This document shows, one piece after another, positions 35,600-39,454 of a DNA stretch of 64,000 nt. Numbering within the stretch: the stretch's first letter is position 1; every line of letters starts with the position of its first letter. Made by a program: the position numbers and the translations under genes. The notes below the pieces were generated by a model. The model had not been told where the DNA came from, made no database searches, and was given only the letters and a program-made list of their open reading frames with translations. The stretch is from positions 1 to 64,000 of the forward strand of contig JARLIO010000007.1 of the NCBI GenBank assembly GCA_031291675.1, read 5' to 3'. This DNA comes from Azospirillaceae bacterium. GTDB taxonomy: Bacteria > Pseudomonadota > Alphaproteobacteria > Azospirillales > Azospirillaceae.

Positions 35600-36689
35600 T
35601 TGCGGTATCGTCGGCCTGCCCAATGTCGGCAAGTCGACCCTTTTCAACGCCTTGACCGCAACCCAGGCGGCCGAGGCGGCCAATTTTCCGTTCTGCACCA
35701 AGGAACCGAATGTCGGCCGCGTCGGCGTCCCCGATCCGCGTCTCGACCAGTTGGCCAAGGCCGCCAAATCGGCCAAGATCATTCCGACCCAACTGGAGTT
35801 CGTCGATATTGCCGGCCTGATCCGGGGCGCCAGCAAAGGCGAAGGGCTGGGCAACCAGTTCCTGGGCAACATCCGCGAGGTCGATGCCATCATTCACGTC
35901 CTGCGCTGCTTCGAAGACGACGACATCACTCATGTCGAGGGCTCGATCGATCCGCTCCGCGACGCGGAAACCGTCGAAACCGAATTGATGTTGTCGGACC
36001 TCGACAGCCTGGACCGCCGCCTGTCGCCGCTGCAGAAAAAGGCCAAGGGTGGTGACAAGGAGGCCAAGGCCCTCGCCGACGTCATGGAAAAGGCACTGAC
36101 CGCGCTGCAGGCGGGCAAAGCCGCCCGGACCGTGGCCCTGACCGACGACGAGAAACCCCTGTTCCGTTCGCTGGGCCTGCTGACGGGCAAACCCGTGCTT
36201 TATGTCTGCAATGTCGAGGAAGCCGCAGCCGCCACCGGCAATGGCCTGTCGGCCGCCGTCGCCCGGATGGCCCAGGCCCTGGGCGCCGGCAGCGTTGTGA
36301 TCTCGGCCGCCATCGAGTCCGAAGTCGCGCAACTCTCCGATGCCGAGGAAAAGCGCGAGTACCTCTCTGCCCTCGGCCTGGCGGAGCCCGGCCTCAACCG
36401 GGTGATCCGCGCCGGCTATAAGTTGCTGGATCTGATCACTTTTTTCACCGTTGGCCCCAAAGAGGCCCGGGCCTGGACCGTGCGGCGCAATGCGCGCGCG
36501 CCCGAGGCCGCGGGTGTGATCCATTCCGACTTCGAGCGCGGCTTCATCCGCGCCGAAACGATCGATTTTGACAGCTATGTAACTCTCGGCGGCGAACAGG
36601 GCGCCAAGGAGGCCGGGAAAATGCGCCAGGAAGGCAAGGATTATATCGTCCAGGACGGCGATATTTTCCATTTCCGATTTAACGTATGA
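35589..36689 (+). CDS. ychF: Ribosome-binding ATPase YchF/OLA1
   Basis: The 366-residue Obg-family P-loop protein has [18 protein letters not shown], the G3-like [20 protein letters not shown], and NVEE in place of NKxD at G4, the change that makes YchF prefer ATP. A C-terminal TGS domain follows ([15 protein letters not shown] to [11 protein letters not shown]). It overlaps pth, so the two are co-translated. Confidence 0.97.
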
Positions 36690-36925: not shown

Positions 36926-38092
36926 ATGACCGTCCCGTCCCTTGACGATGTCCTGGGCAATCCATCCGATTATTCGCCCGCGACCTTTGCGGAGCGTGGC
37001 GTCACTGTTGGTTTCACCTCGCCGGTTGTGGCCCAGGCGCGCATCCGGGCCAGCCGGCACAAGGGCATGGAACTGGTCATGCCCAATCTGACCGGCGGCA
37101 AAGGCTTCTACCTGTTCCAATGGACCGCGGTGCTGCACTCCTCCACCGTAACGGTTCATGACCGTCGGCTTTACGGGCTGATCGCGGCCACCCGCGTGCT
37201 GGAACCCGGCATGGTCCGCCGCCAGGCTTTGCGTGCCGCCAGCGAAGGGCTGGCCGGGCGCCGCGCCGCGCAGCGGGCCCGTCAGGTGATCCGCGAGGAT
37301 CAGGAATATTCGGTTCTGACCAACTTCCTGCTGTTATCGCGCCTGCTGCAGACCGGCGACGCCGCGATCGTGCCCCTGCTCGACGCCAACAACATGCCGG
37401 TTGTCAACAGTGACATCCGCGAGGCGGCTCAGCAGGTCGCCACCGATCTCGGTCTGACGCCCGACGCGCTGTATGATCGCATTGAAACCCTGGGGCAACT
37501 GGTGCTGCCGCTCGGTTTGCCCTGGGCACCGACGTCGGGGCGTCTGCGTCGCCTGATCGGGGATCTTGAGCGTTTCGCCGGCGAGGCCGCGGCCTTGAGC
37601 GCGCTCAGCTTCGGCGATTTTGCGATGCTGGCCGATGTCGCGTCGCGCTCGGCCCGCAACGTCGCGGCCCTGGGCCGGGCCGCCATCGCCGAGATCGACC
37701 GCACCATCGAGAATGATTTGACCTGGATCGTGGGTGATTGGCCGACAGCGCGAAAGACGTTCCCGGGAACGCTGTTCTGGGTTGGCTGGCTGCTCGATGG
37801 CTGGGATTACATCATCACGGCCTGGCAGGCGGTGGTTGGGCTGTCTGACCGGGCCGCATCGAACGGCGTGGCCGGCGGGTCGATCGAGCGTCAGCGCGAC
37901 GCCCTGGTTGATCTGGCCTGGCTGCTGCCGCTGATGCCCAAGGAAGTTCAGGACGCCACCGCGCAAAGCCTCAATGATGAGACCCGGGATGTCCAGCGTC
38001 GCTGGGCTCACGCCCAGCCCGAAACGCTCGCCGGTCGGACATTGCTACCCGCAATTCGCCACAATGAAGAGCTAAAGGCAGCCGTCGCCTGA
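36926..38092 (+). CDS. Protein of unknown function, first of a two-gene module
   Basis: A 388-residue protein with no signal peptide and no clear membrane helix, predicted mostly helical. The N-terminal 100 residues contain GVTVGFTSPVVAQARIRASR and LTGGKGFYLFQWTAVLH, and a tryptophan-rich segment occurs near residues 265-300 (LTWIVGDWPTARK, FWVGWLLDGWDYIITAW). I do not recognise a family. The stop is three bases before the next ATG, so the two are a translationally linked pair. The upstream gap of 236 bases after ychF suggests an own promoter. Confidence 0.8.
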   Translation: MTVPSLDDVLGNPSDYSPATFAERGVTVGFTSPVVAQARIRASRHKGMELVMPNLTGGKGFYLFQWTAVLHSSTVTVHDRRLYGLIAATRVLEPGMVRRQALRAASEGLAGRRAAQRARQVIREDQEYSVLTNFLLLSRLLQTGDAAIVPLLDANNMPVVNSDIREAAQQVATDLGLTPDALYDRIETLGQLVLPLGLPWAPTSGRLRRLIGDLERFAGEAAALSALSFGDFAMLADVASRSARNVAALGRAAIAEIDRTIENDLTWIVGDWPTARKTFPGTLFWVGWLLDGWDYIITAWQAVVGLSDRAASNGVAGGSIERQRDALVDLAWLLPLMPKEVQDATAQSLNDETRDVQRRWAHAQPETLAGRTLLPAIRHNEELKAAVA

Positions 38093-38095
38093 CCG

Positions 38096-39454
38096 ATGGC
38101 GTCGTCAGAGGCATTACGGAGTGGAATGGAAATCTCGCGCGCCAATTTGACCACCCTCGCTCAGCAACTATCGCAGAGCACCGATCGGCAACTGACCAAG
38201 GTGGTCGGGCTGATTGACAAGCTCAGCGACCGCGGAACGCTGGATGCCGCGATCAGTCAGGTTCGTGACCGTTTGGCGACGCTGCGTCCGGCCCGCCCCT
38301 TGTCTCTGGCCCGCCTGCTTTTCAATCCGGTCGAAGATCTGCTGGACAATGATGACGTCTATCGCCGTCAAAGCCGTCGCGTCAACCGGGCCCTGATCCG
38401 CACCGTAACCCAACTCGTCGAACAGGCGTTGGGGCCCGAGGCCGAGACGCTGCGCACCCGGCTCGCCGACAAGACCACCCATGACGAGGCGCTGGCCTTT
38501 CAGATGGGATGCCTGGTATGGCCACGATCGGCCCAGGCGCTCGAGGCGGTGCTGGCGCGGGCCGCCCGGGATCCCGCGTTTCGGGTCGCGACGCTGGGAC
38601 GCAACCTTGATGTCGCGGACCAGATCCAGGATCTGATTATTTTTCTCAAAGCCGCCGCCGAAATCGAAGAGCTCAAAGTCAACCTGCCACCGCGTCCGTT
38701 CGGCACCTTGGCACTGCAACATATCGCGGCGCTCGAAAAGACCTTTACGGCGATTGACACCGCCGAGGCGATTGACGCGATCGCGCGGGTGCTGATCGCC
38801 CGGGCCTCGCGCCCCGGAGAGTTGATGGCCACCATCGACGCCCTGTGCGCCCGCCTGTCGGCGACACAGGCCCGGCTGCTGACGACGGCGATCACCGCGG
38901 CCGCCGTCGCCGCCTTTGATCGCGACCTTCAGGGATTGGCCCAGCGCACCGCACGCACCGCCCCGCAGAATGCCGACATCGCCGAGCGGTTGTTGTCGTT
39001 TCTGGTGTCGCTGGACCGGCAGAAACTCGGCGGGAATTTTCGCGTCGGCTCCGCGACGCTGGTCGATGCCCGGCATTTTATCGCGGCTTTCCTGAGCCCG
39101 GCGGTCGCCGAAGGTGTTGCCGAAGCGATCGCCCTGTTGGCCGCCCTGCCCCGGGGCGAAGCGGGAAATGACGCCGCGATCGAACGGCTGGAACGGACCC
39201 TGATCGCGGTCCGTGTCCTGGCCGATATCGATCGGACGGTGCGCGGCGATCGCAAGGCTGAGGGCCAGATTGACCGCCTGATCAGTGATCTGACGGTCCG
39301 GGCCCGTGACCATATCAGCGAAGCCGCGGCGCGCGATGCCGACACCGCCTGTGCCCTGGCCGGTGATTTCTGCCGGATGATCGAACTGGTCAAGGACTCG
39401 GAATTTGCCGAGCCCCTGTGGCGCAACTGGATGACGGAATTGAACCGGCTGTAG
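38096..39454 (+). CDS. Protein of unknown function, second of a two-gene module
   Basis: The 452-residue, almost entirely helical protein has no signal peptide or membrane helix. Repeated leucine/alanine-rich helices such as LTKVVGLIDKLSDR, LIRTVTQLVEQALG and DQIQDLIIFLKAAAEIEEL suggest an alpha-solenoid or scaffold. No catalytic motif is recognised. A short hairpin (GTCCCG/CGGGAC, about 39517-39537) follows and may end transcription. Function unknown; it is probably a partner of the preceding gene. Confidence 0.78.
   Translation: MASSEALRSGMEISRANLTTLAQQLSQSTDRQLTKVVGLIDKLSDRGTLDAAISQVRDRLATLRPARPLSLARLLFNPVEDLLDNDDVYRRQSRRVNRALIRTVTQLVEQALGPEAETLRTRLADKTTHDEALAFQMGCLVWPRSAQALEAVLARAARDPAFRVATLGRNLDVADQIQDLIIFLKAAAEIEELKVNLPPRPFGTLALQHIAALEKTFTAIDTAEAIDAIARVLIARASRPGELMATIDALCARLSATQARLLTTAITAAAVAAFDRDLQGLAQRTARTAPQNADIAERLLSFLVSLDRQKLGGNFRVGSATLVDARHFIAAFLSPAVAEGVAEAIALLAALPRGEAGNDAAIERLERTLIAVRVLADIDRTVRGDRKAEGQIDRLISDLTVRARDHISEAAARDADTACALAGDFCRMIELVKDSEFAEPLWRNWMTELNRL

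Follow-up and report, generated by a model that had tools for sequence, protein, structure and literature searches.

Two adjacent genes in an Azospirillaceae genome are passed on and duplicated together. They occur throughout one group of bacteria from soil and water and belong to widespread alphaproteobacterial families that have so far gone unnamed. A reading made from the sequence alone (hereafter, the sequence-only reading) had found no recognisable family for either protein; this has to be revised, since each half of the pair also belongs to a larger family of its own. A connection to cyclic di-GMP (c-di-GMP), chemotaxis and surface attachment is suggested by remote homology and by the neighbouring genes at some loci, and a link of the pair, as adaptor and scaffold, to c-di-GMP is plausible.

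A gene pair inherited as a unit

The window, by which we mean the whole 64,000-nucleotide stretch of DNA analysed (65% G+C), contains the pair with the following features.

36926–38092, plus strand: gene 1, 388 aa, of an unnamed family with homologues in 31 of 59 relatives; beta unit at the N terminus, then a helical bundle
37040–37120, plus strand: beta unit of gene 1 (residues 39–65) with three short strands by DSSP of the model
37787–37804, plus strand: WLLDGW motif of gene 1, residues 288–293; conserved part of the Trp-rich segment
38093–38095, plus strand: spacer between genes 1 and 2, exactly 3 bases; sometimes a 4-base overlap in relatives
38096–39454, plus strand: gene 2, 452 aa; all-helical, rod-like; unnamed family
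38264–38338, plus strand: residues 57–81 of gene 2, its most conserved segment; invariant R57, R59, R67, R73 and P78

The coordinates and lengths agree with those given by the sequence-only reading, as do the gaps it had placed on both flanks: the gap between gene 1 and the upstream ychF, which ends at 36689, is 236 bases long, and that between gene 2 and a downstream SnoaL-like gene on the minus strand (low end 39592) is 137 bases long. The good coding character that it had described is evident from G+C by codon position (0.70/0.49/0.78 in gene 1 and 0.70/0.48/0.77 in gene 2), a bias typical of coding DNA. The best proof that both genes are real is that homologues of both occur as direct neighbours in further genomes, with best identities of 37–38% for gene 1 and 32–35% for gene 2.

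Profile searches detected gene 1 in at least 76 of the 82 genomes searched in the order (78 matched, of which G014 and G032 were dropped because their weak match is a gene of the A6 family described below) and in at least 21 of 240 genomes of the class (24 matched; the weak G041, G124 and G176 were dropped). The gene-2 profile matched at least 37 of the 240 class genomes, comprising 18 of the 21 gene-1 genomes (all except G202, G263 and G305), 16 genomes with gene 2 alone and 3 (G122, G266 and G307) whose weak matches were left unused. These figures are lower bounds, as up to 24 (order), 8 (class, gene 1) or 7 (gene 2) first-look candidates were profile-scored per genome.

Two peptide patterns retrieved 164 loci, of which the best 80 were named; in 77 of these 80, gene 2 comes after gene 1 on the same strand. 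For 70 pairs with starts set by a home-made gene finder, the distance is within 30 bases in 55, and 14 show a 4-base overlap. The trees of the two genes match closely (r = 0.935 over 88 pairs, partly owing to shared species history; the largest value in 1000 permutations was 0.152) and have 65 of 85 bipartitions in common, including 49 of the 54 strong ones, indicating that the pair travels as a unit. Some genomes of the order carry it in several copies, and the settings around it are syntenic among relatives. Clustering the neighbours of the 80 loci revealed no third general operon gene among gene calls from this simple finder, which is set for high G+C and misses genes in low-G+C loci. The tight coupling noted from the sequence, for which co-occurrence across genomes had been suggested as a check, is thus confirmed.

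Neither protein matched Pfam or NCBIfam above the curated cut-offs, and NCBI annotates the Azospirillum relatives as “hypothetical protein”. We took the best remaining matches, all to gene 2, as chance: TraF_2 in Pfam (E = 0.013; 15.1 bits against a cut-off of 25), dnaQ_proteo in NCBIfam (E = 0.039) and a single unnamed phrog in PHROGs (E = 0.0055). No solved relative of either protein was found by sequence, and none convincing by fold; nor are the two related to each other (hhalign probability 1.3%). Openly licensed papers, searched by locus tag, accession and topic, gave no named function for genes of the pair. A clear profile match to a characterised family was sought and none found, and the description of the pair as an undescribed two-gene module stands.

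Predicted folds of the two proteins and their relatives

The AlphaFold2 model of gene 1 (pLDDT 89; 43 of 80 aligned sequences kept by the redundancy filter) consists of a small beta unit and a helical bundle, and that of gene 2 (pLDDT 93; 48 of 76 kept) is a long, essentially all-helical rod. The claim that both proteins are helical therefore holds for gene 2, but gene 1 departs from it in its three short strands. The maximum 19-residue hydropathies of 1.41 and 1.63, respectively, give no reason to expect a transmembrane helix. In the beta unit of gene 1, R39 and Y62 are invariant and R41 is at least 90% conserved (44 sequences). The Trp-rich segment noted from the sequence is also present, with six Trp within residues 267–300. 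Of these, W288 (43/44), W293 (44/44), W300 (40/44) and W272 (33/43) are conserved to differing degrees, and W267 and W285 occur in the window copy only (1/44 each). Within the WLLDGW motif, D291, G292 and W293 are invariant and W288, L289 and L290 at least 90% conserved in the same 44 sequences. The fold of gene 1 has no good match (best E = 0.19 by Foldseek against the PDB and 0.20 in a viral library; VIA Z ≤ 6.0), and a profile search of PDB sequences returned mostly designed or other helical bundles (best E = 0.00034).

For gene 2, the best Foldseek match was Exo70F2 (7pp2_A; probability 1.00, E = 0.011, TM 0.33), with Exo70p, Sec10, Sec8 and Munc13 recurring among the others. Such tethers are all-helical rods, as gene 2 is predicted to be, and the model might be read as a bacterial member of the Exo70/CATCHR fold acting as a membrane tether. 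We consider this highly improbable and did not accept the membership. No Foldseek match reached E ≤ 0.001, and the VIA-align score against Exo70 (Z = 7.8, rmsd 10.1 Å over 273 residues) was tied with or below those of importins, a cullin complex and designed repeats, that is, within the range of unrelated helical repeats. A sequence relation is absent too: the PDB profile search gave no Exo70/CATCHR match at E up to 1, its only match (E = 0.45) being deemed chance.

Gene 1 is related to an unnamed alphaproteobacterial family of 320–370 aa, here called A6, whose members begin with STHFLFxxKVF and, where scanned, have no above-cut-off match in Pfam or NCBIfam. A6 was assigned to 35 of 240 class genomes (37 matched; the weak G305 and G312 were dropped). 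Because helical composition can mislead, we accepted the link only on three combined lines of evidence. First, hhalign aligned the two families with 95.4% probability (E = 2e-8, about 13% identity) over 283 columns that include the C-terminal LLDGWDxxxxxW / LMxWDxxIxxW region. Second, the gene-1 profile matched A6 genes in distant genomes, at 10 of 30 A6 loci below E = 1e-6 (E = 8e-7 to 3.5e-10). Third, three copies (L238, L239 and L240) matched both the gene-1 profile (A4, E ≤ 1e-39) and the A6 profile (E = 5e-5). By these profile comparisons, gene 1 is a remote homologue of A6, with which it has common ancestry.

Unlike gene 1, A6 is not accompanied by gene 2 (0 of 30 loci) and instead lies at some loci near CheZ, FliL, PilZ-like or degenerate EAL genes: FliL is 1.1 kb away in L187, PilZ-like genes are directly downstream in L184 and L190, and a degenerate EAL gene is upstream in 5 of the 8 loci L061–L068. 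Gene 2 is related neither to this EAL partner (hhalign probability 0.1%) nor to A6 itself (0.5%), so the gene 1/gene 2 and A6/EAL pairs are not simply paralogous as pairs. Gene 2 in turn has homologues of about 460–530 aa elsewhere in the alphaproteobacteria that match its profile (E = 7e-21 to 3e-38). In contrast to the gene 2 of the window, they are unpaired, gene 1 not being found by profile search in their 16 genomes, and an OmpR-type two-component system and genes for cytochrome c maturation are found close to many of them.

Gene neighbourhoods and candidate roles

Using four query domains (E 1e-5), we found six EAL/GGDEF genes in the 1.49 Mb that flank 120 stretches holding gene 1, six of these stretches being a locus reached twice. 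Four of the genes lie 119–137 bases from the module on the same strand, encoding a REC-GGDEF protein in L246 and EAL proteins in L126, L045 and L057; a fifth lies one gene upstream, also on the same strand, in L145. Gene 2 is present in L045, L057 and L145, and gene 1 stands alone in L126 and L246. In L227, where gene 2 is again lacking, gene 1 shares 4 bases with a PilZ-like gene bearing RxxxR and DxSxxG. The PilZ-like neighbours were found by motif, and their PilZ matches are under the Pfam cut-off (E = 0.00097, 0.059 and 0.036). A rough probability of 0.011 was obtained for the adjacency in a test framed after the first cases had been seen. Of the five gene-1 copies that have an EAL, GGDEF or PilZ-like gene as direct neighbour, three lack gene 2, so these links count in favour of gene 1 rather than of the pair. 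Genes for such c-di-GMP proteins directly adjoin a few copies of gene 1 and some A6 genes, but the domains of these proteins are absent from both window proteins (no GGDEF, EAL or PilZ in Pfam at E up to 10).

At two further loci, L060 and L245, the pair lies within a chaperone-usher pilus cluster. Most module copies have unrelated neighbours, such as thioredoxin, SelO and pepN (many names were read by eye, and a subset run through Pfam). In the window, the ten neighbours examined are housekeeping or metabolic (prs, rplY, pth, ychF, SnoaL-like, MFS, LysR, cytochrome bc1), with no chemotaxis or c-di-GMP gene among them.

Across the class, the flagellar marker FliL occurs in 20 of 21 gene-1 genomes versus 120 of 219 others, and CheZ in 15 of 21 versus 79 of 219. 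The class-wide association with FliL reaches significance, but genome size and relatedness confound it, and it is not specific: in a control, FliL occurred in 13 of 16 genomes with solo gene 2. Within the order, flagellar co-occurrence is uninformative, because 80 of 82 genomes carry FliL, including all 6 without the module.

Some relatives lie beside genes of the switch between swimming and settling, so the pair may be helper proteins of that switch. We tentatively propose that the two genes could form an operon for an adaptor and a scaffold in a c-di-GMP motility and attachment network of Azospirillales and some related alphaproteobacteria. The two proteins would bind each other; gene 1 might dock, through its beta unit or the WLLDGW bundle, onto an EAL, GGDEF or PilZ protein encoded elsewhere in the genome, and gene 2 would keep the complex in the place where it acts. 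The existence of paralogues would be explained if separate copies served separate outputs (control of flagella or chemotaxis, pili, other surface structures). We propose no enzymatic activity for the pair. The pairing, the matched trees, the EAL/GGDEF/PilZ-like neighbours, the A6 links, the pilus clusters and the FliL co-occurrence are consistent with this proposal. Against it count the housekeeping neighbours in the window and mostly unrelated ones elsewhere, the missing gene 2 at direct loci, the sub-cut-off PilZ matches, the unspecific FliL signal and the lack of a detected c-di-GMP domain in either protein. A bolder version, in which gene 1 would stand for a previously undescribed kind of c-di-GMP effector or of EAL/PilZ docking protein, with gene 2 as its rod scaffold and a dedicated pair for each output (flagellum, pili, other surface structures), seems to us doubtful.

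Quite possibly, the pair is instead a lineage-specific scaffold with a cell-envelope or other housekeeping role, and its EAL, GGDEF and PilZ neighbours are incidental. Such a general role fits the presence of gene 1 in 76 of the 82 genomes searched in the order, the unrelated surroundings at most loci, the window included, the absence of gene 2 beside three of five direct c-di-GMP neighbours, and the frequent two-component and cytochrome c maturation setting of the solo gene-2 family. It sits less easily with the flanking EAL/GGDEF genes being mostly immediate and co-directional, and with the separate links of A6 to CheZ, FliL and PilZ-like genes.

It is rather unlikely that the pair serves as an adaptor for chemosensory or two-component signalling rather than for c-di-GMP itself. 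CheZ is adjacent to A6 in L186 and lies no more than 1.5 kb from a second family (G287), chemotaxis-like clusters surround A6 in L184 and L202 (by eye), and a histidine kinase or response regulator gene adjoins gene 1 in L057 and L246. A6 also co-occurs with CheZ, in 28 of 35 genomes versus 66 of 205 others, a test uncorrected for relatedness or genome size. However, EAL/GGDEF genes lie closer to gene 1, and neither protein shows a CheW, CheA, CheY or receiver domain in Pfam or NCBIfam.

A toxin–antitoxin, phage-defence or mobile module, as two coupled genes with paralogues might suggest, is very improbable for long, co-diverging proteins in syntenic settings common to relatives, with gene 1 so widespread in the order, no known defence protein matching either in PADLOC at E up to 5, and no relative on viral contigs in a pattern-based scan.

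Possible significance for c-di-GMP specificity

PMC5845226 gives 29 to 41 GGDEF/EAL proteins per genome in nine Azospirillum genomes. Dedicated adaptor–scaffold pairs, if our proposal is true, would be a testable answer to the question of how specificity is achieved among such proteins. The pair was found in most searched genomes of the order to which plant-associated Azospirillum belongs, yet it has no Pfam or NCBIfam family. Even if the c-di-GMP model fails, several unnamed alphaproteobacterial families are now defined, together with their relations.

The gene pair and its predicted proteins

The module consists of two open reading frames separated by a three-base spacer:

36926-38092, plus strand: gene 1, an open reading frame of 388 amino acids
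38096-39454, plus strand: gene 2, an open reading frame of 452 amino acids

The codon-position G+C of both genes follows a coding pattern (window G+C, 65%), and the overlying minus-strand open reading frames of 225 and 464 amino acids, although long, were judged mechanical. Among the ten window neighbours, Pfam identified prs, rplY, pth and ychF upstream and SnoaL-like, MFS, LysR and cytochrome bc1 genes downstream. Neither gene matched Pfam or NCBIfam over the curated cut-offs or had a match in PADLOC, and comparison of gene 2 with PHROGs returned a single unnamed family (E 0.0055). Relatives bear the NCBI product name ‘hypothetical protein’, and searches of openly licensed papers by locus tag, accession or topic found no published description of the pair. 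The sequence-only reading had proposed a tightly coupled, undescribed module; the module proved to be real, conserved and undescribed.

AlphaFold2 modelled gene 1 (pLDDT 88.7, pTM 0.86) with three short strands at residues 39-65 followed by a helical bundle, and gene 2 (pLDDT 93.2, pTM 0.86) as almost wholly helical. Across 44 sequences, gene 1 retains invariant R24, G25, R39, Y62, D79, P94, R98, G108 and G111, together with G197, D291-G292-W293, P335 and P338; the tryptophan-rich segment noticed from the sequence alone comprises the conserved WLLDGW region together with tryptophans peculiar to this copy. The N-terminal segment of gene 2 is conserved and arginine-rich (R57, R59, R67, R73, P78). 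Sequence and fold comparison with solved structures gave no convincing match for gene 1. For gene 2, the top Foldseek match was Exo70, likewise a helical rod, but its likeness to helical rods was no better than unrelated helical repeats attain, and membership of the Exo70 fold was not adopted.

Pairing and co-inheritance

Of 59 relatives, 31 gave a gene-1 match in a single-sequence search; for gene 2 the figure was 24 of 33 genomes. The gene-1 profile matched 78 of 82 genomes of the order Azospirillales (76 once two weak matches to A6, a second unnamed alphaproteobacterial family, were set aside) and 24 of 240 genomes of the class Alphaproteobacteria (21 after three weak cases were dropped), counts that are lower bounds because candidates were only partly scored. 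Up to six matches occur per genome, some being two halves of one split copy.

Gene 1 and gene 2 are paired at the genome level. Scanning named bacterial genomes with sequence patterns yielded 164 relatives, the best 80 of which span Azospirillum, Niveispirillum, Aerophototrophica, Minwuia, Thalassobaculum, Nisaea, a Kordiimonadales bacterium, Geminicoccaceae, Rhodopila, Roseomonas and other Acetobacteraceae. Among these best 80, gene 1 is followed by gene 2 in 77 loci: 76 have a gene-2 profile match, one of these cut off where its contig stops, and L128 has a truncated start. Gene 2 does not follow in L124, L126 and L127. Where both genes were called, 55 of 70 pairs lie within 30 bases and 14 of 70 overlap by exactly 4 bases; gene order is reversed in some divergent copies (L044, L045, L057). 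Gene 2 is also present in 18 of the 21 gene-1 genomes of the class.

Tree distances of the two genes correlate at 0.935 (88 pairs, paralogues included), against a maximum of 0.152 over 1000 permutations, with common species history contributing to the correlation. The trees have 65 of 85 bipartitions in common, including 49 of the 54 strongly supported in the gene-1 tree, and the nearest neighbours of paralogues mostly agree. These comparisons indicate that the pair duplicates and diverges as one unit.

Wider families of each gene

The gene-1 profile weakly matches A6, whose proteins are 320-370 amino acids long and which 37 of the 240 class genomes carry. By hmmsearch the match is better than E 1e-6 at 10 of 30 A6 loci, and copies L238, L239 and L240 are matched by both profiles. 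Profile alignment with hhalign (95.4% probability, E 2e-8, 283 columns) confirms the link. Gene 2 has solo homologues in 16 genomes where gene 1 was not found (gene-2 profile, E 7e-21 to 3e-38); none of the members scanned reached the Pfam or NCBIfam cut-offs. The pair thus seems to have arisen when two older families were joined into one operon that then multiplied, the direction of this history being inferred.

The solo genes (L203-L218) share a recurrent setting close to an OmpR-type two-component system, and many of these loci, by eye, also carry cytochrome c maturation genes (ccmI/ccmE/ccmF). The window’s own genome, G000, has two A6 genes, with neighbours read by eye: L172 (G000:C70:55045-55971) adjoins a response-regulator-like gene with an MCP-like gene about 4 kb off, and L173 (G000:C43:12487-13470) stands divergently to a pepN-like gene. 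In Acetobacteraceae loci L138, L143 and L144 the pair is followed by a gene for a pepN-type aminopeptidase, which also adjoins A6 in two other genomes (L173 and L187, Pfam-scanned in L187 alone), perhaps a trace of a shared ancestral site.

Genomic neighbours and a possible role

Some A6 genes lie beside or near chemotaxis or flagellar genes: a CheZ gene adjoins A6 in L186 (Pfam E 1.5e-14) and lies within 1.5 kb of it in a second family (G287), and in L187 the distance from A6 to a FliL gene (E 7e-10) is 1.1 kb. CheZ occurs in 28 of 35 A6 genomes (the 37 matches minus two weak ones) versus 66 of 205 others, and FliL in 20 of 21 gene-1 genomes versus 120 of 219 others. This co-occurrence is weak evidence, since 13 of 16 solo gene-2 genomes have FliL too; a flagellum does not require the module, because all six module-less genomes of the order keep FliL.

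Other neighbours point to c-di-GMP. A degenerate EAL gene (Pfam E 5e-6, under cut-off, one member scanned) stands upstream of A6 at L061, L062, L064, L066 and L068, five of the eight loci L061-L068, with one gene intervening in L062. Genes with RxxxR and [DN]xSxxG motifs, which we take to be PilZ-like marks, lie directly downstream of A6 in L184 and L190 (PilZ Pfam E 0.00097 and 0.059, both under cut-off); in L227, in the same genome as L190 (G208), such a gene (E 0.036) is overlapped by a gene-1 copy lacking gene 2. The motifs match 6 of 687 small genes; unlike these three, none of the matches in L050, L187 and L191 is an immediate downstream neighbour on the same strand.

Around gene 1, the flanks of 120 stretches (six representing a locus reached twice), 1.49 Mb in all, yielded six EAL/GGDEF genes. 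In four cases the gene is separated from the module by 119-137 bases and shares its strand, encoding REC-GGDEF in L246 and EAL in L126, L045 and L057; the fifth (L145) is one gene further upstream, same strand, and the sixth is at 3 kb. The chance of at least four immediate neighbours in six is ~0.011 under random placement among ~1350 flank genes, in a test devised once the first cases had come to light. Gene 2 is present in L045, L057 and L145 and absent from L126 and L246. Of the five gene-1 copies that directly adjoin an EAL, GGDEF or PilZ-like gene (L045, L057, L126, L246 and L227), three lack gene 2, which tells against a c-di-GMP link of the pair. L045, L057 and L126 encode EAL proteins of one subfamily, which 66 of the order’s 82 genomes carry; in five of them (G006, G015, G016, G030, G034) its gene is, by coordinates, no more than 5 kb from gene 1. 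In L060 and L245 the pair stands among chaperone-usher pilus genes (L060: usher 2e-17, PapD_N 3e-7; SCPU, 0.014 and 1.8e-4, both under cut-off).

In several genera of the order (L047, L049, L051, L052, L054), inspection by eye placed a thioredoxin gene on the other strand, upstream of gene 1. Also by eye, three small genes, two apparently encoding one-helix coiled-coil membrane proteins, follow the pair in L048 and L050, and similar-looking genes lie some kb away in L051. A divergent gene-1 copy on a large plasmid (L053:6748-9040) has nearby a gene for a C39-type peptidase (Pfam E 4e-18) and, by eye, genes resembling those of type II secretion.

CheZ, FliL, PilZ-like, EAL/GGDEF and pilus neighbours are absent at the window copy and at most copies, and neither protein contains a c-di-GMP domain. 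We tentatively propose a complex, inferred together with its partner, in which gene 1 would be an adaptor and gene 2 a rod scaffold, and which may take part in controlling motility, attachment and surface structures through c-di-GMP. Slightly more likely is the main rival, in which the pair has a structural role outside c-di-GMP signalling and its neighbours are incidental.
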